The notes under the pieces are model-generated. The model was not told where the DNA came from. It was given only the letters and a program-made list of their open reading frames with translations, and made no database searches. This document shows, one piece after another, positions 5,800-46,745 of a DNA stretch of 64,000 nt. This DNA comes from Isoetes taiwanensis (Eukaryota; Streptophyta; Lycopodiopsida; Isoetales; Isoetaceae): contig JAJEKV010000096.1 of assembly GCA_021234155.1 (NCBI GenBank), positions 1,496,010 through 1,560,009 on the forward strand, read 5' to 3'. The position numbers and the translations under genes were made by a program. The stretch's first letter is position 1. Each line of letters opens with the position of its first letter.

Positions 5800-7641
5800 G
5801 TGATGGAGCAAGCTTCTCAAGGAGAAAAGGTTGCAGCAGTTCCAATTCCCATACAAGTTGATGTGATCTTTCCAATTCCAGCACCTCTTTATCATGGTCT
5901 TGAAGAACCTGAGCTTTATCTTTGTAGATTTGAAGAATATTTTGATGATTATGGTAAGAGAAGAGGAGAAAAGATTGATGTATTTGGCAGGTGCATGAAA
6001 GAGGAAGCAAGCCATTGGTTTGAGTACCAAAAGACTTGCGAGGTACATGATTGGGATGAACTCAAAAGGAACTTCATCAAGAGATTTGGGGTGCCAACCA
6101 CACAAGAGGAGGTCATTCAAGAGCTGCCAACAATTGTTTTGAGGAAGAATGAAGGGGTGCCAAGTTTCGTGCAAAGATTTCATGCCTACATGCTCAAGTG
6201 CAAAAGGTACAAAGTGGAATGGCCTACTCTTCATTTGCTTGTTTACTTTGTGCAAGGTTTTAGATTACATTCCACTGTTTACAAGAAAATGCTGAAATGC
6301 TTTCATAAAGGTATGTTCTATTCTATACAACAAGCCTTTGAAAAAGCTTTGGAAATAGATGATCTTTTGACATATCTTCAAAAGCATGATGTTTATGAGC
6401 AGCCTCTTGATACTAAATCTCTCATATGCGAAAGAAAGATAAGCTCAAATCAAAGGGAAACCTTGGAGGAGAAAATGAAAGAAGATGAGGTATGCTTGGA
6501 TGCTAGTATGTCTCTCTTTTCTTGCGACCATGGAAAATCTCAGCAAGAATCAGTCATGACAGTAAGTAATTCAGCATATTCATGTGACAAAAAGGTACCT
6601 CATGATGTTCCCAAGGTGTTTTCCTTCTTGGATACCATTGCCAAATCTGATTTGCAGGAGTTAGAGCATGTTAGCAGCCATATAAATCCAAGATTTGCAT
6701 GTTTTGAAGGTGATTCACATAAGGCCAGCCATGACACCCTAAAGAATGCACATGGATCAGAGGTTTTCATTGCTAATGAAGTAAGTCTTATCACATCTCA
6801 TATGGTTGAGGAGTTTGAGCATGTTCTCTTGTATGATGTTGCTGAGTTTGAGCATTGCCATGAAGAAAAGAGTGTTGAATGCATGAGCAGCCCTGAGTAT
6901 GAGAATTTTTATACCATTCAAGCATTTGAGGATGATTATGAACCATGTTTGTGTGAATTAGAAGTGGGAAACATTGATCTCTCACTATTTCAATGCTCCA
7001 AAAATAAGTTCCAAGGACTTGAATGCCATGACAGTCATAATAGCAGCTCACATTATGAAGTTTTTAGTTTTGAAACCTGTCTATCAGCTGAAAACTCAGG
7101 TGAGGATGATTTGCACATGCCTCAATTGGAGAATTATGCTTTCTTGGATGATTTGAAGCAAACTTTTGAGTTAAAGATGCAAGTTTTAGATGATGTAATA
7201 GCATATGAAGCTTGTGCAGATCTGATCAGTTCTAAATTTCAGCTTTGTGGCAGTCCAAAAAAGTCTGAAAATGATAAGGAATCAGTCCCATGTGTGGTTG
7301 AGCATGAAGAAGTTAATTTTTTGACTAGTTTTGAGCATGACAATGTAGTTGAACTTGAGAAATCAGACTTGAGCAACATCTTATCCAAATGTGCAGCAGA
7401 AAAATATGAATATCCAAGGTCCTTTTCAGCATTTGAGAACAGCAAGTTGATTGGATCATGCCAACATAGTAGGTATTACTATGTTACATCAGATTTGCCA
7501 CTTTTGTATGCTCGTACAATCATCTTTGAGCAGGCCATAGCATTGTGGCATATTGTTTTGCCACTTATGTTGATGCAAACACAAGTTATCTGCATCCTAC
7601 TATTTGGAGGATGTATACCTGACAGAGTTGGAGTTGGCTAA
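5800..7641 (+). CDS. Retrotransposon Gag-domain protein
   Basis: The 613-residue protein starts at an ATG 125 bases after the inferred LTR end. Residues about 25-200 form a Retrotrans_gag domain, the capsid precursor part: PAPLYHGLEEPELYLCRFEEYF, then EEASHWFEYQ near residue 67, WDELKRNFIKRFG near residue 85, and a long LLVYFVQGFR stretch. The remaining 400 residues are acidic and Cys/His/Ser rich, with loosely repeated short motifs. I see no CCHC zinc knuckle and no protease motif. The ORF is open over its full length, so this insertion is fairly young or Gag is maintained. The C-terminal part could be a family-specific extension. There is no Pol in any frame downstream to 8278. Confidence 0.8.
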   Translation: MMEQASQGEKVAAVPIPIQVDVIFPIPAPLYHGLEEPELYLCRFEEYFDDYGKRRGEKIDVFGRCMKEEASHWFEYQKTCEVHDWDELKRNFIKRFGVPTTQEEVIQELPTIVLRKNEGVPSFVQRFHAYMLKCKRYKVEWPTLHLLVYFVQGFRLHSTVYKKMLKCFHKGMFYSIQQAFEKALEIDDLLTYLQKHDVYEQPLDTKSLICERKISSNQRETLEEKMKEDEVCLDASMSLFSCDHGKSQQESVMTVSNSAYSCDKKVPHDVPKVFSFLDTIAKSDLQELEHVSSHINPRFACFEGDSHKASHDTLKNAHGSEVFIANEVSLITSHMVEEFEHVLLYDVAEFEHCHEEKSVECMSSPEYENFYTIQAFEDDYEPCLCELEVGNIDLSLFQCSKNKFQGLECHDSHNSSSHYEVFSFETCLSAENSGEDDLHMPQLENYAFLDDLKQTFELKMQVLDDVIAYEACADLISSKFQLCGSPKKSENDKESVPCVVEHEEVNFLTSFEHDNVVELEKSDLSNILSKCAAEKYEYPRSFSAFENSKLIGSCQHSRYYYVTSDLPLLYARTIIFEQAIALWHIVLPLMLMQTQVICILLFGGCIPDRVGVG

Positions 7642-8278
7642 AGCACGTACCATTCCATGATGTAGTCCAAAGCAAGACTTTACTTTGGTGCTACAGTAAT
7701 ACATGTGCTCTTCATCAGAACATGTTTGCACATGTGAACAGATCATACATAGCTGATTCTATCATATTGCCACCATCCCATCATGTCCACACCATGCGCA
7801 CATCTCATTTGTCATGTTTCCACATCCTTTTCCATCTGCACATCTCATTTGCCATGTTTCCACATCCTTTTCCATCTGCACGTCTCATTTGCCATGTTTC
7901 CACATCCTTTTCCATCTGTAGATCTTATTTGCCATGTACACGTATGTCCCATCATGTCCATATTATGTGCTCACAAGTGTATCCTTATCATGTCCACACC
8001 ATGTACACATCATTCCCAACCATTCATCTCAAGTTACCATCATGCCTCCATATTGTCACCTCTATTTTGCTAACCATACATTCATTTGTCATGCAGGTCC
8101 ACCACATTCATAGTTCCATGATCATTTGCACATCATTTGGCCTACCTACCATACTACCTTGCTTCTCTTTCTCATGAAAACCCATGTTGCCAACCATTTT
8201 TCCACATTGGCAACCATCAAGTAAATCCACATCTAGTTCAAGAGGCTGGGGGACCAGCCTATCCTTCTTTGTTTGGCA
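7642..8278 (+). repeat. Element 3' interior: 40-bp tandem repeat and pre-LTR palindrome
   Basis: Three copies of a 40-base unit run at 7801-7840, 7841-7880 and 7881-7920 (key core TTTGCCATGTTTCCACATCC), with a partial fourth copy. Just before the 3' LTR is the palindrome AGGCTGG/CCAGCCT (8243-8249 and 8254-8260). It is conserved in the related element at 10290-10307, so it is probably part of the family's 3' priming region. Confidence 0.7.
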
Positions 8279-8942
8279 TGATGCTGCCACATTTTGGCAG
8301 CATAGAAGAGCCATTTGCATGAACTACACCTTTGGCTAACATTTGGTTTGATACATGTGTGCATGAGCTAATCAAGCAACAGAATTGAAGACATCTACCT
8401 TTGAAGACTTTTAGAAGATATTCGTGATGAAGAACCAAGGGAGAACATTGATTGAGCATCATACAAGTATGGCAAGAAAGTTGAGATTCAAGCAAGAAGA
8501 TTTGAGCCTAAATTGAAGACCCCTCGTTAGAGTCTGGAAGACCCCTCAAGGTTCATTGGTATGTGGCTAGATCCAAGTCATTTTGGCATGAATTCCATTT
8601 TCCAAGGCTTCTTTCATGTTCTTACCATCTTGATCCCATTCATGACTTCCTATCTCCATACTCCATTACCATTTCCCCTAGCCAAAGGTTGGCAAAGTTT
8701 CCTTTTTCTAGTCAAAGCACATCACATACCTATTATTCATCCACTTTCTTGAGAAAATGCAAAAAACTCCACCAAATTTGGCTATTCCTAAGGTATAAGA
8801 CCATTTGTGCACAAGTGCCAAATATTATGCCAAATCATCCACATCATCTTCAAAATGCCAAATATCATCCACATCATCACTCAAGTACATCGACATCACC
8901 ATACACATGTCATCCACCTCATCACCACATCACAAAAAGTTA
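8279..8942 (+). repeat. Truncated 3' LTR
   Basis: It matches 3339-4003 with few substitutions and stops within 'cacaaaaagtt'. About 1.65 kb of LTR present in the left copy is missing, so a later deletion or insertion removed its right end. Confidence 0.85.
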
Positions 8943-10288
8943 AAAATGAGAGCTCCTACCCGTGGCTCTGACTCATAAGGAAGTCGACTGACTGGATAGG
9001 CCTCAAGATAGAGCAGACCGAGTCATAACAATGGCGGGGCTGGCTATAGACAATGGCTAGGGTTGACCACTCCATCCGCCCCTCCTGTGCATACTTTGCA
9101 GATGGGCTAGATCAAGCTCTGGCATGACTCTAGCCTTCTGGATACGCAATCCCATGGCATCACCCATCGGGACTACTCCAGGTTGCATCTCCCTGGTCCG
9201 TCGAGGAAGGAAGGGTTGCATCTCCCCTTCCCGGGGTCTAGAGGTTCCACGGGCGGCTAGAGAATCGTGGCGACACACGATTCGTCAACCCCCCAAAACA
9301 AGAGCCAAGCCAACACTTGCAACTCTTGAGAGGCAGGGCGACACCATTGCCCCAGGAGGTGTGGACTCATGCCCGACCCACACGAAGTGACCGACCATAA
9401 GCCTAGCCCACTATGGGATCCCCAGTAGCCACGCTCAGCAGGGATCCTCCCTCCGCATTGCCTCTAGCCCCGTTGTGTAGTGCTGAGTCACATCATAGCC
9501 TCCATAGCCCGGTGGGTTCCTATGCACAGGCCGCAAGAATAATAGGAACTAAGGGGTCTAAACTAGGAGCATACTACTAAGTAAGGCTACTAGGTCTCTA
9601 CCCCCCTTCCCAATACAAGAGGAGCAAACATGATCAACCATCATCACATCACATCACATCATATCATAGTAACATCATAAGAACATCTTAACCTAATCAT
9701 ACATACCTAACTTACAGTTAGGATTCCTTGATTAGGGTTCAAGATGTTCAACAAGGGTTCTAGGATGGCTCTACTCTAGATACAACATACAGACCCATCT
9801 GGAGTGCTAACTTCCAGATGAACTACCATGACTCTACTCCACCTACCTGCTCCAGAAGCACTTCCTCCCATCCCTGGTGTCTCCATGCTCCTTGACGTGA
9901 TCGAAGTCGTGCTCCCTCCTGGTGCACACACTTCGGGGGCTGCTGCACCAGGCTATGCTACGACGAACGATGCTCGAAACGGGGTTTCGAGCGCGTAGAT
10001 GAGTGTTCAGGTGCTAGAGTCAGGAAAAGGGGTCTAGGGTTAGGGTTTGAGCCAATATAGGTTAGGGTCCACATGGGATGCCACGTGGCACCAATAGGAT
10101 GGGGCCGTGTGGCGGTTGCCCAATAGGATAAGGCCATGTGGAAATGGGCCTTATCCTAAGGGTATCTAAGTTAAACAATTAACTTAGATATGTGCCCCTT
10201 GTCACTTCTAAGGTATACAAGAGACTTGTATAGTGACGGGTCCAGGAATATACGTATTTATGGCGTATATTCCCCTGGAACGTCACAA
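8943..10288. other. GC-richer repeat-like DNA, no gene recognised
   Basis: The composition is richer in G and C than the neighbours between about 8950 and 10100. Short ORFs on both strands (for example 9124-9390) have no recognisable domain. A (CATCA)-like microsatellite sits at 9640-9675. It may be interior sequence of an unidentified element. Confidence 0.4.
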
Positions 10289-12567
10289 AAGGCTGGGAGA
10301 CCAGCCTGTTCTTTCTGTTTGGCATGATGCTGCCATGCTTTGGCAGCATAGAAGAGCAAGATACATATTGATTTACTTGTGTCTGCATGTTGATTTGAGC
10401 AAGATACACAAACACCATTGATTTGAAGAGAACACTTCCTTAAAAATCATAAGTGGACACTTGAAGACCAAGGTGAAGACATTCATGAAAGATCACACAA
10501 GTATACTAGGAAAGGTGATTCAAGCAAAGCAACTTTGAAGTTTGGAAGACCCCTTGAGTGTTCTTGGTATGTGGTTTTGCTATTGAATTCTTGGCATGAC
10601 TATTTCATATGTTCCATATCTTAAGCTCTTCATCTCCTTTTCTATGCAAAAGATCCCTATGACTTTAAATTCCATGCCTAGCCTTCATATCCTATAGCAA
10701 ATTGGCTAAGGGAACCTTTTTCTAGTCAAAACATGTCTTTCATACACCATTCACACCTCACACATCCACCATAGCACCATCATCTTGAAAAAGCAAATTA
10801 ATTTGGCCACCTCCATGGTCTAGGGTCAAATTCTCTCTCTAGAAGTCAAAACAGAGAGAGAGAGTGCAAAAATTCCTATGGGAAGCAAGAAAACTCAAAC
10901 TATCAAATTGTTGCCTAAACTTTGCAATTTTATATGCACTAGTATCAAATTGATCCATGTCACCACTCAAAAGTTGCCAAATCATCATACACATCATCAC
11001 CATTGCCATGTCACACCATACACATGTCACCCCTCATTAAAAGTCCATTTTCTTTAAAATTCTCCAAAACAAGTTGTTTAGACCATTAAGGAGACATGTT
11101 GTCATGCCACATCATCAGACACCTCCACATCACCACACACGTGTCACACTCATCACTTCCACTTCATCAAAAGTTTTGACTATAAAAAAGATACCTTGCC
11201 AACTTGTTTGACACCTCACCATCTCTCATTGCCATGTCATCTTCATCTTGCCAACTCACCTTTCCCTCTTGCAACCTCACCATGTTATCATCCCACATTG
11301 AGTCCAAAAGTCAAAGAGCCTATTTTGCAAAAAAGATGGGATATATTGAGAATTCTCCCCAGAACCCTAAATCCTCTGTCATGCCAAGATCCGGCAGTTC
11401 AACCAGAATTAATCACCTAATCATGAAGAAATGCCTTCGGACCTGCCTACACCACACTAAAAACTCGATAATTAAATGAAAAGACAAGATTCTGACCCGG
11501 ATTTGCCAAGAACAGGCCGGAACAAGGCATTTTGGAAAGGGGAAAACAACAAAGAACATTTTCGAGGGCTTTGGACAGATTGGATCGAGACTCTTTGGAG
11601 AAAGACCGATTCTGAAGACTTGTGCTTGAATTTGCCTTTCAAGCATCATATATCTATGGATTTCTTGATGTTATCAGTTGATTACTCGATTTGAAGTTTG
11701 ACTTGAGCCTATACCCAAGACACAGAGCTTGGGATTCTGTTTAATTACTGTGTGACTCTTGAATGAATGAAAATCTGACCCAAACTGAGTATAGTTTTTC
11801 GTTGGCATTCTAAAAAATATGACAGTATATTTTTCTGTGCTTGCACACAGTTAAAAGATATTTGCAGTAAGAATTGCACACAGGTAAGAGCATAACAGTT
11901 GAAGGATTATCAAAAGGCTTGCATATTTCATTAAACCATTAGAGATTCTTGCTTGCATTGCATTATTAAGCCAAGAATTTGCATATTTTAGTCTGTGATT
12001 GCATCTCTCACTAGCTGAGTGGTTGTCCCTCTTGCAAGGTATAAATACTTGCAGGATTTGTTCCAAAAACAAACAAGAGCCCACAGAAGATCGATTTGTC
12101 AAAGCTTTGCTTGCTGTTCATAGTCTGTGACACTCTGTCAGACCTAAATCCAAGATTTCAAGATACTTTGCACCTGTTTATGCAAGAAGTGTACTTGACC
12201 ATTGTGTGCAGGCATATTGAAAGGAGATCCAAGCATCAAAACACAAAAAAGATCTACCTCTTTGGATTTGTAAAAAATCACTCTCTGCCAGGGATATTGA
12301 CCAACTTTTGACCCAGTCAGAAATGTATATTTGAAAGATTTGCACTAATCATAGGACATCTGACTTTTTGCCTAACATTCCTCAAGATCTTAAGTAGCTC
12401 TGGCATTTGAAATCATGACCAAATCCTTGTTTGTTTGCATATGGCATCATCTTTTCTAAGGCAGTCTTTTTTCTGATTTGGAATTTTCTCACATAGAGTG
12501 GTTGCCTTAAGCAACCTGGAGGTTCTAAACCATTGAGGTTGAAGGTTTTGCCAGGAACACCTTCAAC
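10289..12567 (+). mobile_element. Related LTR remnant (pre-LTR palindrome plus LTR)
   Basis: The palindrome AGGCTGG/CCAGCCT (10290-10307) and the LTR start TGATGCTGCC at 10325 repeat the organisation seen at 8243-8279. The LTR body is clearly diverged from the first element. It ends with the same 'GAGGTTCTAAACC...CCAGGAACACCTTCAAC' stretch at 12519-12567. The preserved palindrome upstream means this is a 3' LTR with a sliver of interior, not a solo LTR. An AG-rich run at 10850-10865 and two short CAT-rich ORFs have no coding look. Confidence 0.65.
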
Positions 12568-13860
12568 TTGATCCAGCTGGTTTGACAGGTATGAAGAAGC
12601 AACTACTCCTTCTCCAACTCTTCCCAAATTAATTTGGACCAGAATTGGGCTAGAGACCCATTACTTCTCAAATGAGTAAGTAGCCTGAGCCAATCGAGTT
12701 GGTCCAGGTGGCTTTACCCCATTGGTCAAATTGTCCTAATTAATAATAAATAACTAGGCATTTAGTTATTAAATAGCTTAGTTAACTGGTATATTAGCAT
12801 AGCTAATTTAAACCCTTTTATTTTATTCCACAATAGTGTTGTGTCATGATATTTATGCATATTCGTATAAATACATGGAACGTCACATTGATAAAGTGAT
12901 TTTTGTTTATATTGCTCCACCCCCGTTAGTCAACAACGTTGCTGGTTGTGCTTCGGTTATATGAGCCAGCTTGATATTCACCTTTTCAATCATCTTCGTG
13001 TGTATGTCATCGACCATTCTATTGTTTGCATGCGTGTAAGAAGGCAACCTAAATGCAAGTCACACCTTAACAACCTATTAAAATGCCTCATTTATTGCTT
13101 TATGCTCTAATAGATATGAGGACAACACAACCCCTCGACAACTTTTTGTTCAACCTGACAAAGCTGCTGTATAATGAGACATTGGTCAACTCTCCCCTAT
13201 TTGCTTTGATTGGAAACCAACTCCACCATTTTAGGCATCCGTTGTTTTCGTGCAGTATACGTATCTAGTCTGATTGCATCAAGCCTACCCTCAAATAAGA
13301 ATATTGGAGGCATCATCATATCCTAAATGCATTCACCTTGTGTTTGCTCGTCCTTTACAATTTTTCCAGTGTCCCTTCCATACCCACTTTGCACCCTTCT
13401 TGTACTTGTGTTCTTCTACTATTCGAACGGCTTGAAGCATCCTGATTTTCTTAATGCATCCTTACGAAGTTCCTTCGGGGCTTAACATTGTACTATCCAA
13501 TTAGTTTTGTCTCCTTTCTCTGCTCTTCCCAAAATATAGGCACGGACTCGAGTAGCACCTCCATTCCTTGAGACATGTCCACGAAATTTACATGATCACT
13601 CTCCAACAGCCAACCTATCCACATACTCCCACTCAATCCATGGTTTTCTATCTGATGACATATCTCCTTGGCCTGTGCGCGCTTTTTGCTAGCTCCAATA
13701 ACCTTTATTGCATGAGAAGTAGAAGCACGACCCGTATTGCATGGCATAGCTTCTGCTCAATTGACCTTCGAGTGGAGTTCATAACTAGAGGCCATTGTGT
13801 ATAAGCAAAGGAGCATCTCACTTGTATATGTCATACTATCTCTAATCGAAGCTAATGCCA
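12568..13860. other. No gene recognised
   Basis: This is AT-rich DNA with small ORFs in both directions that lack domains. The 12-mer TGGAACGTCACA at 12876-12887 also occurs at 10276-10287. Confidence 0.4.
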
Positions 13861-36153: not shown

Positions 36154-36985
36154 ATGGCGACCAAAACCAATTCCGGCGAGGTAAGAAGCATTTTTTTTTA
36201 GTCCGAGTTTGTTTTTTTTCTTAATATAGAATGTTCAATCGGGTTTCCAGGACATGCTTTTCGCAAGAACTCCTCTTGAATTTGCTAAGTATCGTAAGCT
36301 TTCTATGGAGGGCAAAAATGCAAGAAGCATCAAAAAGGGAGATGTTTCAGATGCAGAATTTCAGCAAGTTTGGCAGAAGCCCATGCCCAAGACGGGCAAG
36401 ATTCATGTAAAGCTGATCAGGCCTGAGTTCAAGACATCTCTGACAGACTTGATCGAGAGGGTTTACCAGAAACCCCTTCCAAACAATGAACTTCGAACAT
36501 TGTTTGCCAGAGCATTCGCCTGGTCTCATAGTGCTAAAGCCTTGCAGAATCCTGATGAGTACAAGGTCAATTGGGCGAGTTTAGCAGCAGAGGCTTACAG
36601 AATTGGGCAAGTACAGTTGAACAAAGAGCATGGGAATGCTTTTGAAAAGAACACCAAATCCCTGCTGAACCACATGAGGTCTCTTTCTACAATGTTAGAA
36701 GACAGTAAAAAGGAATTGGTGGAGAAGCAGGCTGATCTGTTGAGGATGGAGGGTTCTGCTAATAGCTCGATGGCATGCTTTAAGGATCTTGAAGATGAAA
36801 TTAAGGAGAAAAGGCAGAACTGGTTGGCCTTGGAGCTCTTCAACCCTGAAGAAGAGGATGCAATACAGTTAATACAAAAGGAAGAGCAAGCTTTGCAATC
36901 ATTTTTAGACAAAACACGATTGCAAATTAAACGGGAGTGTTGCAGCACTCCCGTTTCAAAGATTCCCTTGAAAAAAACAGCCTGA
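36154..36985 (+). CDS. Gene A: unidentified coiled-coil protein
   Basis: Exon 1 is 36154-36180 (MATKTNSGE), the intron is 36181-36250 (GTAAGA...TTCCAG), and exon 2 is 36251-36985. The product is 253 residues and fully open. It has a conserved-looking start (DMLFARTPLEFAKYRKL) and a basic middle (KTGKIHVKLIRPEFKTSL). A helical second half is likely coiled coil (MLEDSKKELVEKQADLLRM, then FKDLEDEIKEKRQNW, then IQKEEQALQSFLDK). It ends in a basic tail (STPVSKIPLKKTA). I recognise no family. The MLFARTP motif recurs as MFARTP in gene C. It is convergent with gene B. A structural or DNA-bridging partner is only a guess. Confidence 0.7.
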
Positions 36986-37440
36986 TCTAGAAAATGACAC
37001 TTTTTTCCTTCTAATTGGGAATTCCAATAGGCTTAATTTTTTTTTACCTCTTTTTTGGCCCCCTAGTGTAAAATAACTTGGAATTTGCCAAAACCAACAC
37101 TTGAAAAGGGAAGAATTTAGACATGCTTTTGTATTCTCAAAAAGTACTATCTTGAAAACACCAGAATGTAGTGAATAAAATAATTATTATATAATGAAGA
37201 GTGTTTCAATGATACAATTTGTAACATCACATGGTGGTCAGTATTAATGTTTTTTGGAAAAGACAGACTAAAGGTCCAAATCAAAGTCTTCATCATGCTT
37301 TTTGCTTGATTCTCACAGGCTGATTCTACTGATCGATCCTTTTCTTGTGCCTTACCCTTGTCTACTTGTGCGGTGTCTTCAGAATGGTAGCTAGTGCCAC
37401 TTCTTTCAGCTCTGCAAAAGTAGCTTCATCCTCTAAAGAG

Positions 37441-38722
37441 CTAGTGAATGGAGGTCGTATCTCGAGAAGAGGTCACTTTGGCAAAATCGGATGAGGATTT
37501 GGCCCCTAACTCTTGGTGCTCATCTGGTAGGGTAGGCAAGGCTGCCAGTCTCATCTTGATGAATTGCACAGCTTCTTTATCAATGTCCACTGCTACACAA
37601 TTCCGGCCCTTCCTAAGTGCACAAGCTATTGTTGTACCAGAGCCAGAGAAGGCATCAAGCACCCAATCTCCTGGACGTGAAAACATGTCTAGGAGATGGT
37701 TGATTAGCTTTTGAGGCTTCTGGTAGTGATTAACAATTCTACCTTGTGCACTAGGGTCCTGAAGCTTTTGAAGCACTGACCGAAATTCCAACACATTAGA
37801 AAATTCGCATGTCATGCCAGTTAAAATGCTCCATGGTGCGTTTTCCATCTAAACTCCAAAGAAGCAACATGGAGGTATTCAACCTTACTCAAAGAATCTC
37901 GCCCGCCGCCATGGTAGTTTATATTTGTTTTGTACTGTAGAAATTAGAGTGGTGTCACTAACGAAAAAACAACAAGAAACAAACAAAGAGAACAAGTGAA
38001 AGGCAATTATATTCGAATAGAAAACTAAAACAAAAAGAAGAAACAAGCCCAACGTATTCCGTAATAAAGTACTCACCAAACCAAATTCTCATAACCAGCT
38101 TTTTGCACCGGGATCCGGCGAGTTTTAAACGTGGACTCCACAAGGCCGATTGCATGCTCGAGTGAAACACGACAAGACGCCGCTGCTTGGCGTTGTGACT
38201 TGTTTTGATGCCGCCGACGAAAGCGTTAAACTCTGAAAATTTAAAAGGTCGGGTCGTCAGAATTACCGTCCTTTAGTTTAAAGCCATAAGGAAGGTCCGC
38301 AATCACCAAAGGAAATCTTGTGGCTTTTATCGTCCCAACCAAATTAGTGCAGTCCCCGTGAATGATGGAAAACAAATTATTTTGGTCAAATAAATTAAAC
38401 TTTTCATAATCGAAAGGCTCCACATCTAGAGTTCTCCTCTCTGCCAAGTGTTCTTTCTTCTCGTGCGGTCGACGAGGTGCATAAAACCTTCCGGCGGTAC
38501 TTATTTTTCTTCTTGTTCTCGCAAACAAAGGGGAGATTGAGACGTAGACAAGTAAAGTATGACGTGTTTAATCAAGCACCCCATCCTTCAAAAATTTGGT
38601 GCGTCTTCGAAGCATACGCCGTCGGATGTAGCTATGGGATAAAGCTCCTTGCACCTCTCCCACGCCTCCACGCTGAGTTGCTCCATCGACATGTCCGCGG
38701 TGTGATAACATTTTTTGGCTAG
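37441..38722 (-). CDS. Gene B (3' part): beta-class N6-adenine/N4-cytosine DNA methyltransferase
   Basis: Transfers methyl groups from S-adenosylmethionine to an exocyclic amino group in DNA (N6_N4_Mtase family). From 38722 downward there is a coding-like piece (CYHTADMSMEQLSVEAWERC), then 38528-38241 with IHGDCTNLVGTIKATRF and the catalytic motif IV DLPYGF. The next piece (FVGGIKTS, then RRLVVFHSS) continues only after a one-base shift in a TTTT run near 38243. An intron follows at 38076-37849 (GTGAGT...GTTTAG). The last exon 37848-37441 holds the SAM-binding motif I, DAFSGSGTTIACALRKGRNC, then VAVDIDKEAV. Motif IV before motif I marks the beta arrangement. The single shift may be decay or an assembly error. 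It shares strand and direction with the ParB module, and one fused gene is likely. Confidence 0.75.
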
Positions 38723-38883
38723 AAAGAAAAAACACAACCTTTTTAGCAGTTGAAAAGAGAAAACGCCAAGTAAACTATCTTCCCGCCACCTAAAGTTATT
38801 CTAGAATACAAGCGGCGAATCAATATTTTTTCTTGTTGCGCGTATGTATTCCGTATACACTTTAATCAAGAAAGAAGAAGCGA

Positions 38884-39025
38884 AAGTGTATTCGAATACA
38901 CTTCTACAACGCAACAAGTTAGAGTGTGTATTCCGCATCACGCTTTATTTGACTCAAAGGAGTAAAAGTGTATTCGGAATACACTTTTACACTACAAGAA
39001 GAGAGAACGTGTATTCTGAATACAC
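38884..39025. repeat. Palindrome cluster 1 (three copies), candidate operator or parS-like sites
   Basis: 38884-38903 is AAGTGTATTCGAATACACTT. 38962-38990 has 14-bp arms around one G. 39009-39025 is GTGTATTCTGAATACAC. A diverged copy lies at 38843-38861. The cluster sits in intron-like DNA between the ParB exon and the methyltransferase exons. Confidence 0.9.
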
Positions 39026-39131
39026 TCGCTCCCATCGAGGGTGCGAAAAGCATTTCCGTGACCACTAAATTGCTTTGTTATCCGGACAGAATTCTACAAG
39101 TGAAAAGGCAAAGAATGATTGTATGCTTACT

Positions 39132-40431
39132 TGTGCAACTCCTTCGACATTTCTTCGAAAGTGTGAACTCCTTGTCCACCACCTTTTGCGTAAGTCGTTC
39201 TAGTAATTACGGTCGCTGAACCCCCGCATCTCCCTCCGCATGCTGATGGTCATTTCTTTCTTTGGGACGTCGCCTTTCTTCTTCTCCGACACCTTTCCCT
39301 TACTTTTTAGCTCACCGCTCAAACATATTAAATATTTCGCTCAAGCTCCCGTGATTCGCAAACAAATTAAAAACTTAGAAGCTAGTTGCACACTAAATCT
39401 TATTCTGGAATACGCTTGTAACCTTACCCGGCCATCCCTGAACGCTAGCTGAAACCAATTGTCATGACCAATGAGTGATGCCCGTTTGTTCGCCTCGTCG
39501 TATTTAAGGCAACACTCAATGGCACAAGCTTCTTTAAGTTCAAGGGAGTACTGTGGCTTTTTGAGATCCTCTCCATACTTTTCCTTGAAGATAACATATT
39601 CTCTGTGCATGAATCTGATTTTGTCGACAAAGCTCATTTTTAACTTGTACTCGTTGTCAGCGTTGTGAGTGTTGGCAACGATTTTGGCTTCCTCGTCGGT
39701 CAAACCACAGTGAGACAAAGAACAGAGAACATACAAGTACCTAGGATTCTTTTTTTCCTTGTATAATTGCCTCCTTGCCTTAAAGCTGTGGTTCCCACCC
39801 AAAACATAATGCGTATATGTGTCCGCATTTTCTCTATCGTACTCTGCAGGAGTTGTGCACTGCTCTCTATCAACAAGAACAACAATTGGAGCTACATGTG
39901 CATTGGGATTGCTCCGGATTCTGTCCTTGAGGTTCCTTAGATGGTCTGCATATATCTTTCGAACCTGCAGTGGTCGTTCTCCAGCATTTTTTGAGGAAGC
40001 TTCATAGTCGGACCGGGTAATAAATGACACCTTGCACAAATTTGTGCGTGTTTATCTCTTCCATTTTCTCTGGCTTGTTTTATCAACTTTTTTTTTTTTT
40101 TGATGGCAACGCCAGTGCTTTGCCTTTCCCCTTCTTCTTCTTGTGTGCATCCTCAGGAGCATCTTCTGTTTCAATGATAGCCGTTTTTCTTTTCTTAGGC
40201 TCTTTAGCAGCTACGGTTTGCCTCTGCTTCTTTGCTGGTGGTGGAGGTGGCTGCTCTTCCGAACCTGATGAACTCACGGATGGGCTCGCCCGACCGTGAT
40301 GGACTCCCCGATAAATTCCCTCGATCTTCCTCTTCCCCTTGTTCCGACTGTTGTAGGGGGAAGTCCTCGCCGTTATTAGCAACGTAATTAATGATGGCGA
40401 GAGCGACCTCTTGTTCACGTGAGAGAAACAT
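39132..40431 (-). CDS. Gene B (5' part): ParB/sulfiredoxin-fold domain with basic N terminus
   Basis: From 40431 down: an N-terminal segment MFLSREQEVALAIINYVANN, then a Ser- and Pro-rich, Lys-rich stretch (QPPPPPAKKQRQ, then KKKKGKGKALALPSKKKK) that looks like a nuclear localisation signal. The reading frame shifts once between these pieces. Exon 40030-39428 is open and carries the ParB-like fold: RPLQVRKIYADHLRNLKDRI, APIVVLVDREQ, HYVLGGNHSFKARRQLYKEK and EEAKIVANTHNADN. 'GGNHSFKARRQL' corresponds to the GxxR box that contacts nucleotide in ParB proteins. The exon ends at a GTAAGG donor. A small exon near 39203-39132 (GGGQGVHTFEEMSKELHK, GTAAGC donor) leads toward the methyltransferase. ParB domains fused to N6/N4 methylases are known in phages and plasmids. 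In a plant genome this is unexpected. Confidence 0.7.
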
Positions 40432-41042
40432 ACTTATAAAGAGGATGTGGATTTACCTTCACAAGTCTAAGGTAGGATTCATCAACATGAATAAAGCCTT
40501 GAGATGTCCGAAAAGACAATCTCCCTCCCTTACCGGTCTGCCCGCCTACCTCACTCCACTTTACGGACAGATGGTGCCCATGCATAAATTCCCCATCATC
40601 GCATTACCTTTTGGTTCCGGGCTCCCACGGACATGTAGAAAAGTCGTGGTGTTTGACTTTCCGTAAGTACCCCTTGTAAAACCATTGAGTTTGGAAGTTT
40701 TCAGAAATAGCGGTAAATCCGACTCCTCAACCCTTCTCTGGTGCGGTTTCAGACGATTTTAAGAGGCTTCTTCATTTGTTTCTTCTTGCCGCCGTCATGT
40801 TCAGGTAAATTGTGTGTAAACACGACCTTGTTAGAAAAAAAAAAGGGTGGCAAAGAACTATTCCGTAATACAAAATGGCTTACAAAAAGGGAAAAAAGAG
40901 GGCAAAAAGAGGACAAAATGTCAAAAAAGCACTCTAATCTTGACAACAAAAGTGGTCTAAACAAGCTAAAAATGCAGCAAGAACGCCTAAATTAACTAAA
41001 AAAAAAACGCAAGGAAAAGTAACCCCTAAAACCTAAAAACGT
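40432..41042. other. Divergent intergenic region between genes B and C
   Basis: It holds short ORFs without domains and a lysine-rich spurious ORF at 40741-40995 caused by poly-A runs. It probably contains the promoters of genes B and C, but I see no clear TATA box. Confidence 0.4.
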
Positions 41043-41217
41043 AAAGTGTATTCGAATACACTTTTCGAGTGGAGGGCGAAAGTGTATTCGGAATACACTT
41101 CGCCTCACCGGCAAAAGTGTATTCGAATACACTTTTCGCATCTCCAAGGCTAAAAGTGTATTCGGAATACACTTCGCCCACTGGTTAAGCGAAAGTGTAT
41201 TCGGAATACACTTTCGC
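41043..41217. repeat. Palindrome cluster 2 (five copies in 175 bp)
   Basis: Full copies are at 41043-41064 (11-bp arms, no centre base), 41080-41100 (10-bp arms, one centre base), 41113-41136 (12-bp arms, no centre), 41154-41174 (10-bp arms, one centre) and 41189-41217 (14-bp arms, one centre). The core is GTGTATTC(G)GAATACAC. A half copy follows at 41229 and weaker relatives at 41310-41580. The spacing is 30-40 bases. The types without and with a centre base alternate. Confidence 0.95.
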
Positions 41218-41637
41218 CGAAAGTGAAGGCGAAAAGTGTATTCCTAATAAGAAACGTACATGCAAATGATTGTGCGTTGTACTTTCTCACTGACCTGTCC
41301 ATGGTTTCTCTATGTGAATCGGAATACGGAATCAAATATAATAATCGAAGTATTTGGCGCCGGCGACTTGAGCTCGTGAGACCGAATACATGAACCGAAG
41401 GCGCCGAAATTTCCTTTTAAAGGTATCATTTTCGTCTTGCTCTTTTTCTATGTGATCCGGAATACGTTCAGCTTTACTATCCTACTCTTGTGTATTCCAG
41501 AATAGCTTTTATTTTGACTTTCACTTGATTAGTACTGGAACTTCTACTTGTACTACGTGGGCGTGTATTCGGGAATAAGAAAAGCTCTGCATTACAGAAA
41601 GTTTCTCAAATCTCTTTACTATTTTGCAGTTGTCAAG

Positions 41638-42588
41638 ATGACGAACCGCTTCGTGAACAAGCTTCCACCACCTTTTGTTGTCTCAAGCTCGTCTGGTTCT
41701 GAGGACACGCTTGGGAACAACGTCATTTCTAGTGAAGACCGGCATTCTCCGACTCCTACCTCTGCTTCATCGTTGTTGCTTCTCGAAGACACACCGAGTC
41801 CAGCACAAAACAGACTTCCACCACCCTTCCAACCGTCACCAAGTCCTGTAGACAGCACACTGGCATCTCCTTCCAAAGAATCACCACCAGTTCGGAGCAG
41901 GTTGCCACCACCCTTTGTTCCATCCCCGGGACCTACAGAAGCTCCACAACAAAGGGTGCTCAAGAACAAGCTACCCCCCCCTTTTGTAGTTTCGCCCCCT
42001 TCGTGCAAACATACAAGGAACACAGAAAACACAGAAGACTGTGAGATTCAGTACAATTTCTCTCACCAGGACTTCACTACAAATGAGGACGACGCTCCAG
42101 CATGCACTCCTCTTCACACAACAACGGTTGTGACACATGGATTTGCAGAATTCCAGTCCGCTCTAAAGGAGATGTTTGCAAGAACTCCTTTTCAAGATGG
42201 TACAAGAACAGCTGATGCCACAACCTCTTATGGGCCATCACCATCCTTTAACACTGTACCCCCGCCTATTCCGGGAACAACTTCACGTGGTCTGTTTTCC
42301 TCTACAAGCACACCACTCAGGACAGAGGAAGTCACCCCCAGAGTAGAAGTTTCATCAGAAGATGAAGACACCAACGAGGAACAAAGAGATTACATGTTCT
42401 CAAGCCAATCTTCAAAGAAATTCAAGGTGGATTTTGGTTTGAGGGCGTGCTCCTCTGCAAGAAGAAGAAATCTTATGGATGAACACAAAATGAGGAGACT
42501 TTTGAGAACTAAATGCTGCTCATTGGGTTGCATCAACAGATTTAATATGGCTAAATTACGAGCAGTTAGAGACAACTACGCCCCATGA
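41638..42588 (+). CDS. Gene C (5' part): proline-rich protein with KLPPPF repeats
   Basis: The start MTNRFVNKLPPPFVVSSSSG is chosen because a TTTTGCAG acceptor stands just before it at 41628. The 316 residues to the stop at 42588 are open. Four copies of a linear motif (N/S)(K/R)LPPPF(V/Q)xSP occur near residues 7, 61, 90 and 114. An EMFARTPFQDG segment is near residue 180 and an acidic-serine stretch (SSEDEDTNEEQRD) near 245. The end carries KCCSLGCINRFNMAKLRAVR, the cysteine motif that opens the conserved part of DUF7869-type proteins. The reading frame then breaks, while recognisable core sequence continues to 44290. Linear proline motifs suggest binding to a partner such as an SH3- or EVH1-like domain. 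That is inference. Confidence 0.65.
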   Translation: MTNRFVNKLPPPFVVSSSSGSEDTLGNNVISSEDRHSPTPTSASSLLLLEDTPSPAQNRLPPPFQPSPSPVDSTLASPSKESPPVRSRLPPPFVPSPGPTEAPQQRVLKNKLPPPFVVSPPSCKHTRNTENTEDCEIQYNFSHQDFTTNEDDAPACTPLHTTTVVTHGFAEFQSALKEMFARTPFQDGTRTADATTSYGPSPSFNTVPPPIPGTTSRGLFSSTSTPLRTEEVTPRVEVSSEDEDTNEEQRDYMFSSQSSKKFKVDFGLRACSSARRRNLMDEHKMRRLLRTKCCSLGCINRFNMAKLRAVRDNYAP

Positions 42589-44290
42589 CATTGGCGGCAC
42601 CCGTAATGCCTACTTAGCTTATCATGTAAGACTAGACCGCAACACCTTCTTGCACTACATTAACCGTCAAAGAAGTTTGCCGAAATGCTTTATGGTTGTC
42701 CACCGCTTAGGGTCCACCGTAATGTCTAGAATACACAAAAGATCGGACAAAAATCCAAAGAATCGATGATCATTGTGGACCAAGAAGAGTTGTAACCATG
42801 CATGCCCTTCTTGGGCCGTGTCATGGATGGAGAAATATTTTAGAGAAACATGTGAGAAGCTACCTAACAAAGAACATGTATCATTTAACCGATAACATCA
42901 CCAAAAGATGTTTTTAATGAGTACAAAGAGACTTGCACTCGCCTTCAAAGACATCTCTTACTCACACTTCACCGTGATCGTGGAAAAGTGAATTCGGTCT
43001 TGTGAAAATTCCTAGAAAACATAGAATGTCCGCTTGCTCGAGGTGTGCGTAATTAAAGAGTCAACGAAAACCGCAAAGACAGAGGTCGAAAAGAAGTAAG
43101 CTCATGTTCTCCAATCTCTCACTTGTTTTTCCGAGAAAATGTTTTGACCTGATTTCTTCTACGATATTGTGCAACGTAACCTTGCCGGACATCGTGAACA
43201 ACAAGCAAGCAGAGAGAAGAAAGCTTGCCAAGCATAGAAAAAAGCTCTTGAACGTCCAATCGCAATACATGTCTCATTGTGATTGATGGAATGGACCAAA
43301 AAAACAACTCTACCACATTTCTTGAACATTCCTAAGGATGTGCGGAGGAATGTTTTGTTAAGGTCCACCTTGTAGGAGCTATGGTCTTCAAAGGAAGTCT
43401 AAAGTGCAAAGTATTTTTGACGATCCAAACTTGCATGGTGACCCGAACCTCACAATTACAATTCTTAACAAGGTCCCGTATGAAGCAAGAGCAATTACCA
43501 CCAAAGTGCTTTATCCGCAACTTGACAATACTACAAGGGAGAACAAGAATCAAACACTCTTTGCGTCATCGTGCCATGTTAGTGGAGCTAGGGATCTTTA
43601 GAAAAGTGAAGCTTGGTTTCTTACTTGTAGGCCACACTCATGATCGATTGACCAAATGTTCAAGCAGATTTTTCAGTGCGCTTTAGAAGGAAGAAGGCTT
43701 TTCTGTCTTCCTTCTTTAGTTCGAATTATTGAAGATTCTTACACTCCTACTCCAAAGGTCGATCTTCTTAAAGAGACCGCTGATTTTAGAGAGTTTGTTT
43801 TCTCTCAACGCTCAAACAGAGAACAAGTCGTGAACAAGTTGAATGATCTCACCTTTCAAAGATCATATCAAGTTCTACTTGAAGGATGGCCAAAGCTTCT
43901 TCTGTGGGAAGAAGTATACCACAACTAAGGACCGGAGTCCACCGGAGGGATTACGCTTCCTTAAATACATTCCGGACACTTCCTTCATAGAGCGTCTTTA
44001 ACAACTTCCTCTCAAAAATCCTAAGAGTCCAAGGTAAGAAAAAGTACCCCGAGTCATCCTTAAAAGCCATTGAAAATGGAATTTCCTCAGCTTTAAGTAC
44101 TTCTTAGAAGAAGATCGGATGTGGTGGAGTAATTTCTTTCTCGAACAAAAAATTGTTGTACAACATATAGCTCTAAGACAGCGATTTGCAAGAACCATTT
44201 CAATGGCCTAACACCTTCCATCAACCCCAAAGACTAAGCGTGTCCAAGCAAAGCTACATTTGCACCTGCAGTAGAAGACGAGGAGGACCG
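42589..44290 (+). pseudogene. Gene C core: DUF7869-like transposon protein, many frameshifts
   Basis: Pieces of a conserved core appear in order in different frames: KYFRETCEKLPNKEHV near 42830, ECPLARGV near 43026, ALERPIAIHVSL near 43245, FDDPNLHGDPNLTITILNKV at 43415, LDNTTRENKN at 43521, LVELGIFRKVKLGFLLVGHT then HD at 43582-43644, and CLPSLVRIIEDSYTPTPKVD from 43707. 'DNTxRENKN ... LVGHTHD' is the signature I know from DUF7869 proteins, which are found in transposon-rich animal, algal and plant genomes and look RNase-H-like. Stops and shifts occur about every 100-200 bases, so no intact enzyme can be made here. Confidence 0.7.
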
Positions 44291-44294
44291 AGTC

Positions 44295-44861
44295 ATGTAC
44301 CTCGGACCAAGACGCAGGAATGAGCCTCAAGGTAATATCACAGAAATTACCAAAGGTATGCTAATTGCTCTTCCGACTGAGGAGGATGACAAAGGTCGAC
44401 CGTTCTGGATAGCAAAAGTGCTTGACACAGTCAAGGAGGAAGGCTTAGTCACTAAACTCAAGATTCATTGGCTTGCAACACGCTCAGAAAATGCTTTTGA
44501 AGGTAGATATGAGTTAGAAATGAGAAGCCAAGGAAAAGGGAGAAAGTCCAAGAAGGTGGGTTGTAGGGACGAGCTAAACCTTAATGACGTGACTATTTTG
44601 TGCTATGATTTTAAATTGAAATCTGACAATCGTCTACGCCAGAAGACTATCAATTTGCTTAAAAAAGCTTGTAATTACGAAGAAGATGATGAAGAAGGTG
44701 GTGACAATGCTTCACCGTCTGTTGATAGTGATGAGGAAGATAACTCAAGCACTTCCTGGATGACAAAGGAAAGAAGTGAAGGTGATGACGATGGCATAAA
44801 TGAATATGAAGACGTCCTGGATCCCTCTCTCATCACTCCTCACACTTTTGCACATAACTGA
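44295..44861 (+). CDS. Gene C (3' part): C-terminal domain, intact ORF
   Basis: This open 188-residue stretch continues gene C after the broken core. It has ITKGMLIALPTEEDDKGRPF, then WIAKVLDTVKEEGLV, then KIHWLATRSENAFEG, then ELNLNDVTILCYDFKLKSDN, LRQKTINLLKKA and a long acidic tail (YEEDDEEGGDNA, DSDEEDNSST). The 'PFWIxKVL...IHWLAT...VTILCYDF' pattern is the BAH/Tudor-like end of DUF7869 proteins, perhaps reading chromatin. The ATG at 44295 is internal, not a true start. It is unexpected that this part stays open while the core is wrecked. Confidence 0.6.
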   Translation: MYLGPRRRNEPQGNITEITKGMLIALPTEEDDKGRPFWIAKVLDTVKEEGLVTKLKIHWLATRSENAFEGRYELEMRSQGKGRKSKKVGCRDELNLNDVTILCYDFKLKSDNRLRQKTINLLKKACNYEEDDEEGGDNASPSVDSDEEDNSSTSWMTKERSEGDDDGINEYEDVLDPSLITPHTFAHN

Positions 44862-45208
44862 GTCTTAGAAAAAGACTGTAAATTTTGCATGTGAATATGA
44901 AGATTCTATCTTCAAATTTTGAGAATACTACAGTTTCGATTCTGCACTTACTTCAATTTTTTGTTACATATTTTATCCTCTGAAATTAGAGTTTCTCTCT
45001 TTAAACATACTTGAAGAACATTCTATTTGCTAAGAAAAGTGACACTTTAAAAAAGTCAATTCTTTCGTTGCAAAAAAAAATTAGTCATTTGGGGGGGGTC
45101 AAAATAGAATTTCATGCATCTTTTTTTTTTTAACCTCGTTTTACCCCCTTTTTTGTAAAAAAAAAGGGAATCTTTGAGGAATATTCCTTTTGCTCTCGTT
45201 TCAATGAT
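44862..45208. other. Spacer between genes C and D
   Basis: Poly-A, poly-T and poly-G runs. A TTTTTTTTAACCTCGTTTTACCC stretch resembles the one following gene A at 37040-37070, suggesting repeated non-coding units in the element. Confidence 0.4.
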
Positions 45209-46745
45209 TTGCTCCCGTTTAATACGCAATCTTGTTACAAGCAGAAGTCGAAGACCAACTCCTCAAGTCTGCAAGCACTAAAGTTAAGTATTTCTATCCT
45301 TGAGTCTGAAATTGAAGAATATGAAGTTAACTTGAAATATTGGCATGCAAAGTGCAAACATGTGGCATATTTGCATCAGAATCATAAGTCAAAGAAGAAT
45401 CTGCCAAAGATAGGAATGGGAAATTATTTTTTCCCAATGTCATCAGATGGGGGAAGTACTTGTGAGGGCTGTGGCCTTCTGTTTTCAGAGGAATATGAGT
45501 TGCATGTCAAACTCAAAGAATGTGGACACATTTACCATGTAATTTGCTTCAGTGTTGTGCTGGAAAGTATGCAATGTATTGCATCAGGTTGTGAAGCTGA
45601 GGTGCCTGCCACCATTTTGGACGAGCTTGGCTTCAAGGAACTGAAGCCACCAGTGTCTGATGATGAAGAAGATAGTGATGAATCTGCAGAAGAAGTGGAA
45701 AAAATCAGCAAAGAAGATTTCAAGTCCAAAAGCACAAAGAAGGAGGTAACTCCTAAGAAAAGATTCAGAGATGATGCAAGCTCTAGTACCTCCTTATTCA
45801 ATGAACCAGCAAGTAAAGACTTTCAGCCAGTCAGACAAGCAAAGAAAAGATTGACAAGGAGTTCTACAAAAAGTAATGCATCAAAGCCAGTTGAAACAGG
45901 TATGAAATTTGCTGATTACTAAATTGTTTAGGTCTGTTAACTTAATTGTGTTCATATGTATTCATTATAGATCCAATCGATGTGGACAAAGTTAGTCCTG
46001 TAAAGTTTTTACACTTGACTCGTGAAGAGGGTTTTCAGCTCAGATCTAAGTCAGCATGTATTAACTTACCTGTATCAGCAAAAGAACATCAGTCCCTTAA
46101 CATGCAAGGTAATAGTATTCCAACATCTCATTCAATGAAGTCTTAAATATCTTAGAATTGTTTGTTTATGTAGCTGAAGGTAGTTCAAAAGCTGGTAAGA
46201 GTTCAACAGAAAAGAGTTCACCAGCTAAACAAGTACCATTGAACAATGGTAAGTGAGTTTTGCACATTAATTCAAACCCTACAAATCTCTGACATGAATG
46301 TCTATTCTTAACAGAAACTGAGATTGAAGAAAATCACTCCCTCTCTCCTATGAAGACTCCAGTTAAAACTGGTAAGCAGTTTTTCAGCAGTTTTCTTCTA
46401 ACTAGTCCTAATTAACATTATGCAGATAATGAAGTCACTGAAGGAGATGGTGCCGACACCAAAGAAGATTCCAACTCCCCCGAGCACCCTGTGAGTTAAA
46501 ATTTCCGAGGTTCTTTACATAGGGTATTCTTTACATAGTTTAATTAGTTAGTTTCTTGCTCATGCAGGTCGAGAACTGAGCATTGTAGTAATATCACCAG
46601 TGGGTGTGGTGCTAACTCCATCACAGCGGCAAGTACTCCAAACTCCAGAAAGCCCAGACAGCCCAATGGAGGAGGAGCTTACCATGGAAGGGTGGTTGAA
46701 GAAGAAGGAGCAGATGAAGGGAGTTGTGAAAAATATCTTCAAGTG
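45209..46745 (+). CDS. Gene D: RING-like zinc-binding protein, six exons
   Basis: Exon 1 (open from 45209, true start not identified, ends 45899) encodes a coiled-coil start (LESEIEEYEVNLKYWHAKC). A RING-like finger follows: CEGCGLLF, KECGHIYHVICF, MQCIASGC, that is C-x2-C ... C-x-H-x2-H-x2-C ... C-x4-C. RING domains recruit ubiquitin-conjugating enzymes. The rest is acidic and basic low complexity (DDEEDSDESAEEVE). In-phase exons follow at 45971-46108, 46174-46248, 46315-46371 and 46426-46490, all with GT/AG ends. They carry short SSPAKQ- and SPMKTPVKT-like Ser/Pro motifs. The last exon begins at 46568 and stops at 46579. A longer open frame (SPVGVVLTPSQRQ to 46745) fits if splicing differs by one base. 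Gene E converges on it. Confidence 0.6.

Follow-up and report, generated by a model that had tools for sequence, protein, structure and literature searches.

A 64-kb stretch of the Isoetes taiwanensis genome (assembly GCA_021234155.1, contig JAJEKV010000096.1, positions 1,496,010 to 1,560,009; hereafter the window) contains a member of a high-copy family of DDE-type DNA transposons, 8324 bp long (36913..45236, no strand assigned), in which two divergent genes, one for a putative ParB-methyltransferase protein (37268..40827, minus strand) and one for a transposase (41638..44858, plus strand), are accompanied by two unstranded arrays of a short palindrome, array 1 within an intron of the ParB-methyltransferase gene (38844..39026) and array 2 between the genes (41046..41211). 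A preliminary description of the region had singled out ParB-like and methyltransferase exons and palindromes between 37441 and 41217; these features are all present, but the span covers only part of the mobile unit at 36913-45236 and left the divergent transposase gene unlisted.

The limits of the element were set by the break in identity and the terminal inverted repeats in 10 copies with both ends. Alignments of the copies all stop at the same points, which are the inverted repeats: the left one, AACACGATTGCAAATTAAACGGGAG, lies at 36913..36937 (plus strand) and the right one at 45212..45236 (minus strand), each located by inverted-repeat search and by comparing the ends of copies, and in the copies read the left end is AACA(C/T/A)(G/T)(A/G)TTGCAAATTAAACGGGAG with its partner at the right end. 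Duplication scoring identified the target site duplication ACAA at 36909..36912 and 45237..45240 (both plus strand), and the plus strand open frame that the element breaks becomes continuous when the flanks are joined at ACAA. Scoring covered 16 copies (the window copy, 13 fetched copies, and 2 more), six of which were left unscored for want of one or both end motifs; all 10 two-ended copies have a 4-bp duplication, equal on both sides and different in sequence in each copy. Directly inside the left end, at 36929-36956, lies a hairpin, AAACGGGAGTG-TTGCAG-CACTCCCGTTT, that is almost constant among the copies read, the neighbouring sequence of those copies being only about 70% alike; the right end has no hairpin of this type and instead a related CTCTCGTTT..CTCCCGTTT repeat.

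The transposase gene was delimited by Pfam pieces, tblastn, and the fold of a relative (P0004), its frames being broken in the window copy. Pieces of DUF7869 lie at 43336-43928 (Pfam E=2.8e-12 and 5.5e-6), and structure modelling predicts that the DUF7869 transposase folds like DDE transposases. Terminal inverted repeats, a target site duplication of fixed length, and an RNase H-like transposase fold with an acidic triad are together those of a cut-and-paste DNA transposon of the DDE class. Sola2 elements have a 4-bp duplication as well. The C-terminal third of the transposase (44223-44858, plus strand; P0004 residues ~396-480) is predicted to form a separate beta-rich domain, perhaps a chromatin-binding barrel.

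The ParB-methyltransferase gene was assembled from tblastn pieces and a splice model taken from a related copy, with ends set by eye; its 5′ limit is approximate and the start codon is not placed. The related copy, interrupted by a stop and small frame shifts of its own, has five exons separated by four GT-AG introns, possibly with more exons upstream, in the order ParB-like exon, putative second ParB half, short exon, and methyltransferase exons. In the window, all on the minus strand, we find i) a ParB-like exon with the motif GGNHSFKARRQL (39428..40061; tblastn), the motif being contained in the open frame 39341-40051; ii) an exon at 39130..39341 (tblastn; frame broken here) that is conserved with a homologue from the liverwort Riccia and that we infer to be the second half of the ParB-type DNA-binding region; iii) a methyltransferase exon at 38153..38494, frame broken, with DLPYGF (motif IV) in the open frame 38241-38567; and iv) a methyltransferase exon at 37486..37934 (Pfam, tblastn) with motifs X and I (DAFSGSGTT), where the open frame 37441-37848 matches Pfam N6_N4_Mtase at E=4e-17. 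Both the beta-class methyltransferase and the introns of the preliminary description are thus borne out.

The class assignment combines the N6_N4_Mtase domain with the order of the blocks DLPYGF, NHYQKPQKLI, and DAFSGSGTT in the related copy, which we take to be motifs IV, X, and I; motif IV followed by X and I is the beta-class order. The methyltransferase part also matches PHROG 67 (5.3e-24), and its best solved chains in PDB are CcrM (2.8e-11) and MboIIA (2.8e-8), cytosine-N4 chains reaching only ~0.02. Because motif IV is DLPY in the element and DAPY in the Adiantum homologue P0002, rather than SPPY, the mark written by such an enzyme is more likely N6-methyladenine (6mA) than N4-methylcytosine (4mC), following the SPPY/DPPY rule for cytosine-N4 and adenine-N6 enzymes as given in the available part of PMC8885841. 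For the ParB-like part, the spliced exons of related copies match NCBIfam TIGR03764 (ICE ParB) at E=1.9e-4 and 21.2 bits, a profile match that weakly suggests ParB.

We searched 1,658,258,908 bases in 1110 contigs. At least 150 copies were found with the methyltransferase exon as query (150 scored out of 2821 first-look candidates), at least 150 with the ParB exon (150 scored out of 3368), and at least 82 matches with the transposase relative P0004 (78 of 10889 candidates scored), counts that are not comparable with one another because the query lengths differ. The thousands of first-look candidates, together with the introns and the confinement of the palindromes to the element, uphold the earlier placement of the system in a mobile element of a eukaryotic genome. 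A plasmid-like partition system, which the preliminary description had also entertained, or bacterial contamination might be suspected from a ParB-like domain beside parS-like palindromes, but introns, target site duplications, and copy number, with copies on many contigs, rule both out, and the existence of liverwort and fern homologues points the same way; the partition idea falls with the finding of a DNA transposon bounded by terminal inverted repeats and target site duplications, and we attach negligible weight to what is left of this explanation.

Frames are broken in several exons of the window copy. Polishing with short reads is unreliable in repeats. Since the assembly, according to the available text of its description, was built from nanopore reads with Illumina polishing (PMC8566536), some of the broken frames may have arisen in assembly. 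Decay or partial mis-assembly has affected the window copy, and any function belongs to the family and not to this copy.

Among the 14 pairs of copies printed, the transposase half (from ~42500) is 86-98% identical, and the methyltransferase half splits into three or more groups, some 60-82% apart. The element accordingly looks like a mosaic in which a near-uniform transposase half is joined to a methyltransferase half of at least three old groups, and this pattern suggests module exchange between element lineages. As a test, two copies in addition to the 16 were chosen by transposase alone, with no listed methyltransferase or ParB place nearby; both (2/2) proved to contain the ParB-methyltransferase gene in divergent orientation together with both arrays, with 10 sites in one copy and 6 in the other. 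Of the 76 typed transposase places, 40 have a typed place for ParB or the methyltransferase within 25 kb, and all 40 are divergent, a fraction that is not a rate, the neighbour lists being partial and partly chosen by eye. In the C985 copy (L011-L012), a nested insertion occupies oriented positions 6522-13051; its ~620-bp repeats are 87% alike, and it is probably a long terminal repeat retrotransposon. The frame interrupted by the window copy (36230-36985, plus strand) possibly belongs to another transposon: it has no Pfam match at cut-off (searched with a query containing one wrong residue), and shares the word FARTP (36260) with the element's own transposase (42175).

The palindrome has the consensus GTGTATTCCGGAATACAC and recurs at a spacing of ~42 bp. 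The window element has nine sites, four in the intron array (one degenerate) and five in the intergenic array, and the rest of the 64-kb window has none; eight of the nine are good sites, and the eight palindromes of one consensus reported earlier are all present. With one 19-mer pattern and up to 3 mismatches, 6 sites were found in the window against 0.04 expected, and in the 16 copies with their flanks (235,302 bp), at up to 2 mismatches, 141 were found against 0.15 expected from Markov shuffles. Of the sites in the 10 two-ended copies, 89 fall within the element (92,714 bp, counting the nested insert of C985) and none within the 63,487 bp of flank. All 16 copies have the intron array, and 15/16 have at least one site of the intergenic array, the exception being C1044 with none. 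Half-site words in the two-ended copies reach 9.90/kb in noncoding parts of the element, compared with 0.34/kb in coding parts and 0.44/kb in flanks, and are scattered also through noncoding stretches other than the arrays. The spacing peaks at 42 bp (39 intervals), and the seven intervals of 84 bp seem to reflect loss of one site. Palindrome centres are CCGG (49), CTGG (29), CCAG (18), and others, including shortened CGG or CG; the transitions would fit deamination of methylated CpG.

Between copies, identity is 0.85 and 0.91 in the palindromes and 0.40 and 0.54 in the spacers, values drawn from 11/16 copies and from 41-43 bp units only, with site selection inflating those of the palindromes. 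That palindromes stay alike while spacers diverge, and that half-sites are scattered in other noncoding DNA, makes it very unlikely that the arrays are passive tandem repeats without a protein reader, whether slippage or gene conversion spread the 42-bp units or these act as hairpins. What speaks for such repeats is that the spacers of both arrays are quasi-palindromic in many copies, and that their own arms pair (0.450 and 0.461) above both swapped partners (0.389 and 0.414) and letter-shuffled controls (0.244 and 0.256); because this covariation is only ~2 to 2.5 standard deviations over swapped partners, we make no structural claim for the spacers. A gathering-threshold search of the window against Rfam for known structured RNAs gave 0 matches.

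The placement of the arrays bears on two further explanations. Transposases often bind internal repeats, and the transposase gene adjoins one array, so the palindromes might be sites for the transposase or a host factor, with the methyltransferase acting at some other place such as the ends or excised DNA; we judge this improbable, since the arrays are not subterminal (distances from the left end ~1.9-2.2 kb and 4.1-4.5 kb), and one sits in an intron of the methyltransferase gene. Autoregulation has in its favour that one array lies between the divergent genes and the other in the gene of the regulator itself, within an intron: the ParB-like part, on palindromes in its own promoter region and intron, would set transcription of both genes, giving copy-number control, and the methyltransferase would only fix the state. 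By itself, however, autoregulation does not account for the catalytic exon being under the tightest constraint of all stretches measured. We consider it unlikely; among the alternatives to an anti-silencing role, repression or control of copy number is the chief one.

That constraint was estimated from the ratio of nonsynonymous to synonymous substitution rates (dN/dS), with and without a filter that admitted stop-free stretches of at least 85% length with an amino-acid identity floor of 0.90 for the last methyltransferase exon, 0.80 for ParB, and 0.75 for the DLPYGF exon. With the filter, 55 pairs from 11 copies give for the last methyltransferase exon median proportions of nonsynonymous and synonymous differences, pN and pS, of 0.029 and 0.696 and a median dN/dS of 0.015 (38 usable pairs, dS >0.2); the ratio is 0.070 for the ParB exon (10 copies, 11/45 pairs usable), 0.120 for the DLPYGF exon (10 copies, 7/45 pairs usable), and 0.11 for transposase stretches (a single pair each), all to be read knowing that the identity floor also lowers dN and so favours low ratios, and that many pairs are close to synonymous saturation, the saturated ones falling out. 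Without the filter (dS >0.3), the medians are 0.041 for the last methyltransferase exon with DAFSGSGTT (75/120 pairs), 0.282 for the ParB exon (39/105 pairs), and 0.448 for the DLPYGF exon (28/91 pairs). The last methyltransferase exon is under strong purifying selection and is clearly kept in both runs.

The joined protein has two relatives at 1e-3 among 6433 candidates scored, one from a liverwort (R1sor_003872 of Riccia sorocarpa, P0001; 30% identity over 47%) and one from a fern (L7F22_061151 of Adiantum nelumboides, P0002; 29% identity over 53%). A three-sequence alignment search for wider homologues gave one match covering 9% of the query (8000 candidates scored). As for a source of the fused protein, none of 42 pattern matches in viral contigs was confirmed, and none of 366 matching phage records covers 80% of the query, the 20 of these listed having 23-26% identity.

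The kind of protein is already known: in the available part of the algal work, ParB-methyltransferase accessory proteins are reported from brown, green, and red algal transposons, and its authors propose that they bind and mark their own transposon (PMC12477816). Like the protein of the Isoetes element, in which the ParB part is assigned by a weak profile match, the algal ones (Ectocarpus Sola1-1_Ec32; green and red algae) join a ParB-like part and an N4/N6 methyltransferase in one protein encoded on the strand opposite the transposase. The two are likened by description only, and ours differs in its land-plant host, 8.3-kb length, DUF7869 transposase, 4-bp target site duplication, and mapped palindrome arrays, target sites going unmentioned in that part of the algal account (PMC12477816). 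The layout recalls the VANC system of VANDAL21 in Arabidopsis, an element-encoded factor whose short motifs are tandemly repeated within introns of VANC21 and VANB21 as well as upstream of VANA21; the VANC motif is YAGTATTAY and not our palindrome, and VANC induces loss of DNA methylation, with no ParB part or methyltransferase described in the text available (PMC5735166).

Other systems share single features with the element, as far as the accessible portions of the respective papers describe them. Transposon-encoded DNA methyltransferases are carried by DNMT retrotransposons of Symbiodinium and Klebsormidium, with purifying selection reported for the Klebsormidium enzyme, and by Dam-like DIRS elements, but these are retrotransposons with C5 or Dam-type enzymes and no ParB part mentioned (PMC5890265). 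Fungal DNA transposons with TET/JBP genes likewise have a DNA-modifying accessory enzyme, but one acting on the methyl group of 5-methylcytosine, whereas the element's putative enzyme would add an amino-methyl group (PMC12730594). Mariner elements in viruses are cut-and-paste transposons with a methyltransferase gene, but have a Mariner transposase and an endonuclease partner, with no ParB part mentioned (PMC3627910). N4CMT of bdelloid rotifers and the 4mC enzyme of Marchantia are bacterial-type amino-methyltransferases in eukaryotes, but are described as host enzymes and not as transposon genes, the former with SPPY and a chromodomain and the latter with no extra domain (PMC8885841).

Binding or modification of the palindromes by the protein is a reasonable inference from this anatomy. 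We propose, with about even confidence, that the element carries a self-targeting epigenetic module with an anti-silencing role and a VANC-like layout: the ParB part would recognise the arrays in the intron and the intergenic control region and bring the attached methyltransferase to them; the methyltransferase would write an amino-methyl mark there; and the element, by marking its own control regions, would resist host 5-methylcytosine silencing, functionally like VANC. Sequence-specific anti-silencing seems the likeliest benefit of such a module, although the step from binding to anti-silencing is itself argued from analogy. In a bolder version, which we think less likely than not, the ParB-type reader would tile palindromes about four helical turns apart in intron and promoter and the attached methyltransferase would write 6mA (or 4mC) as the anti-silencing mark, a bacterial reader-writer pair turned to plant counter-defence in parallel to VANC.

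Several points weigh against this proposal. Specifically, i) the TIGR03764 score lies far under the curated cut-off of 143.75, Pfam gives no ParB match for the window frame or the spliced protein, Pfam and NCBIfam searches give none for the Riccia homologue, and a PDB profile search with the ParB part gave 0 matches; ii) as annotated, the Riccia protein has the ParB-like part without the motif IV (DLPYGF) exon, and the Adiantum protein has DAPYGF without the GGNH part; iii) the palindromes differ at their centre (CCGG, CGG, CG), a variation that binding by a rigid dimer would ill accommodate; iv) one palindrome word is common to all copies read, and co-evolution of reader and target is for that reason not demonstrable; v) dN/dS is higher when all copies, broken ones too, are included; vi) no elements lacking the methyltransferase, which would serve as the natural control, turned up; and vii) we know of no established case in plants of an amino-methyl mark acting against silencing.

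The preliminary description knew of no such plant system; similar proteins are reported from the algal transposons (PMC12477816), and neither a land-plant case nor mapped target arrays were found among the top matches listed in the open-licence literature, as far as the available text of those matches extends. With 6mA in eukaryotes controversial, according to the accessible part of PMC12695648, the element brings together, in one 8-kb unit, a candidate writer, the sites it may target, and a natural substrate in high copy, and because the genome was sequenced with nanopore reads the 6mA question may be answerable from existing data. If the proposal is true, this would give plant transposons a second, enzymatically different means of self-targeting, and one ParB-methyltransferase module may join algal and land-plant transposons.

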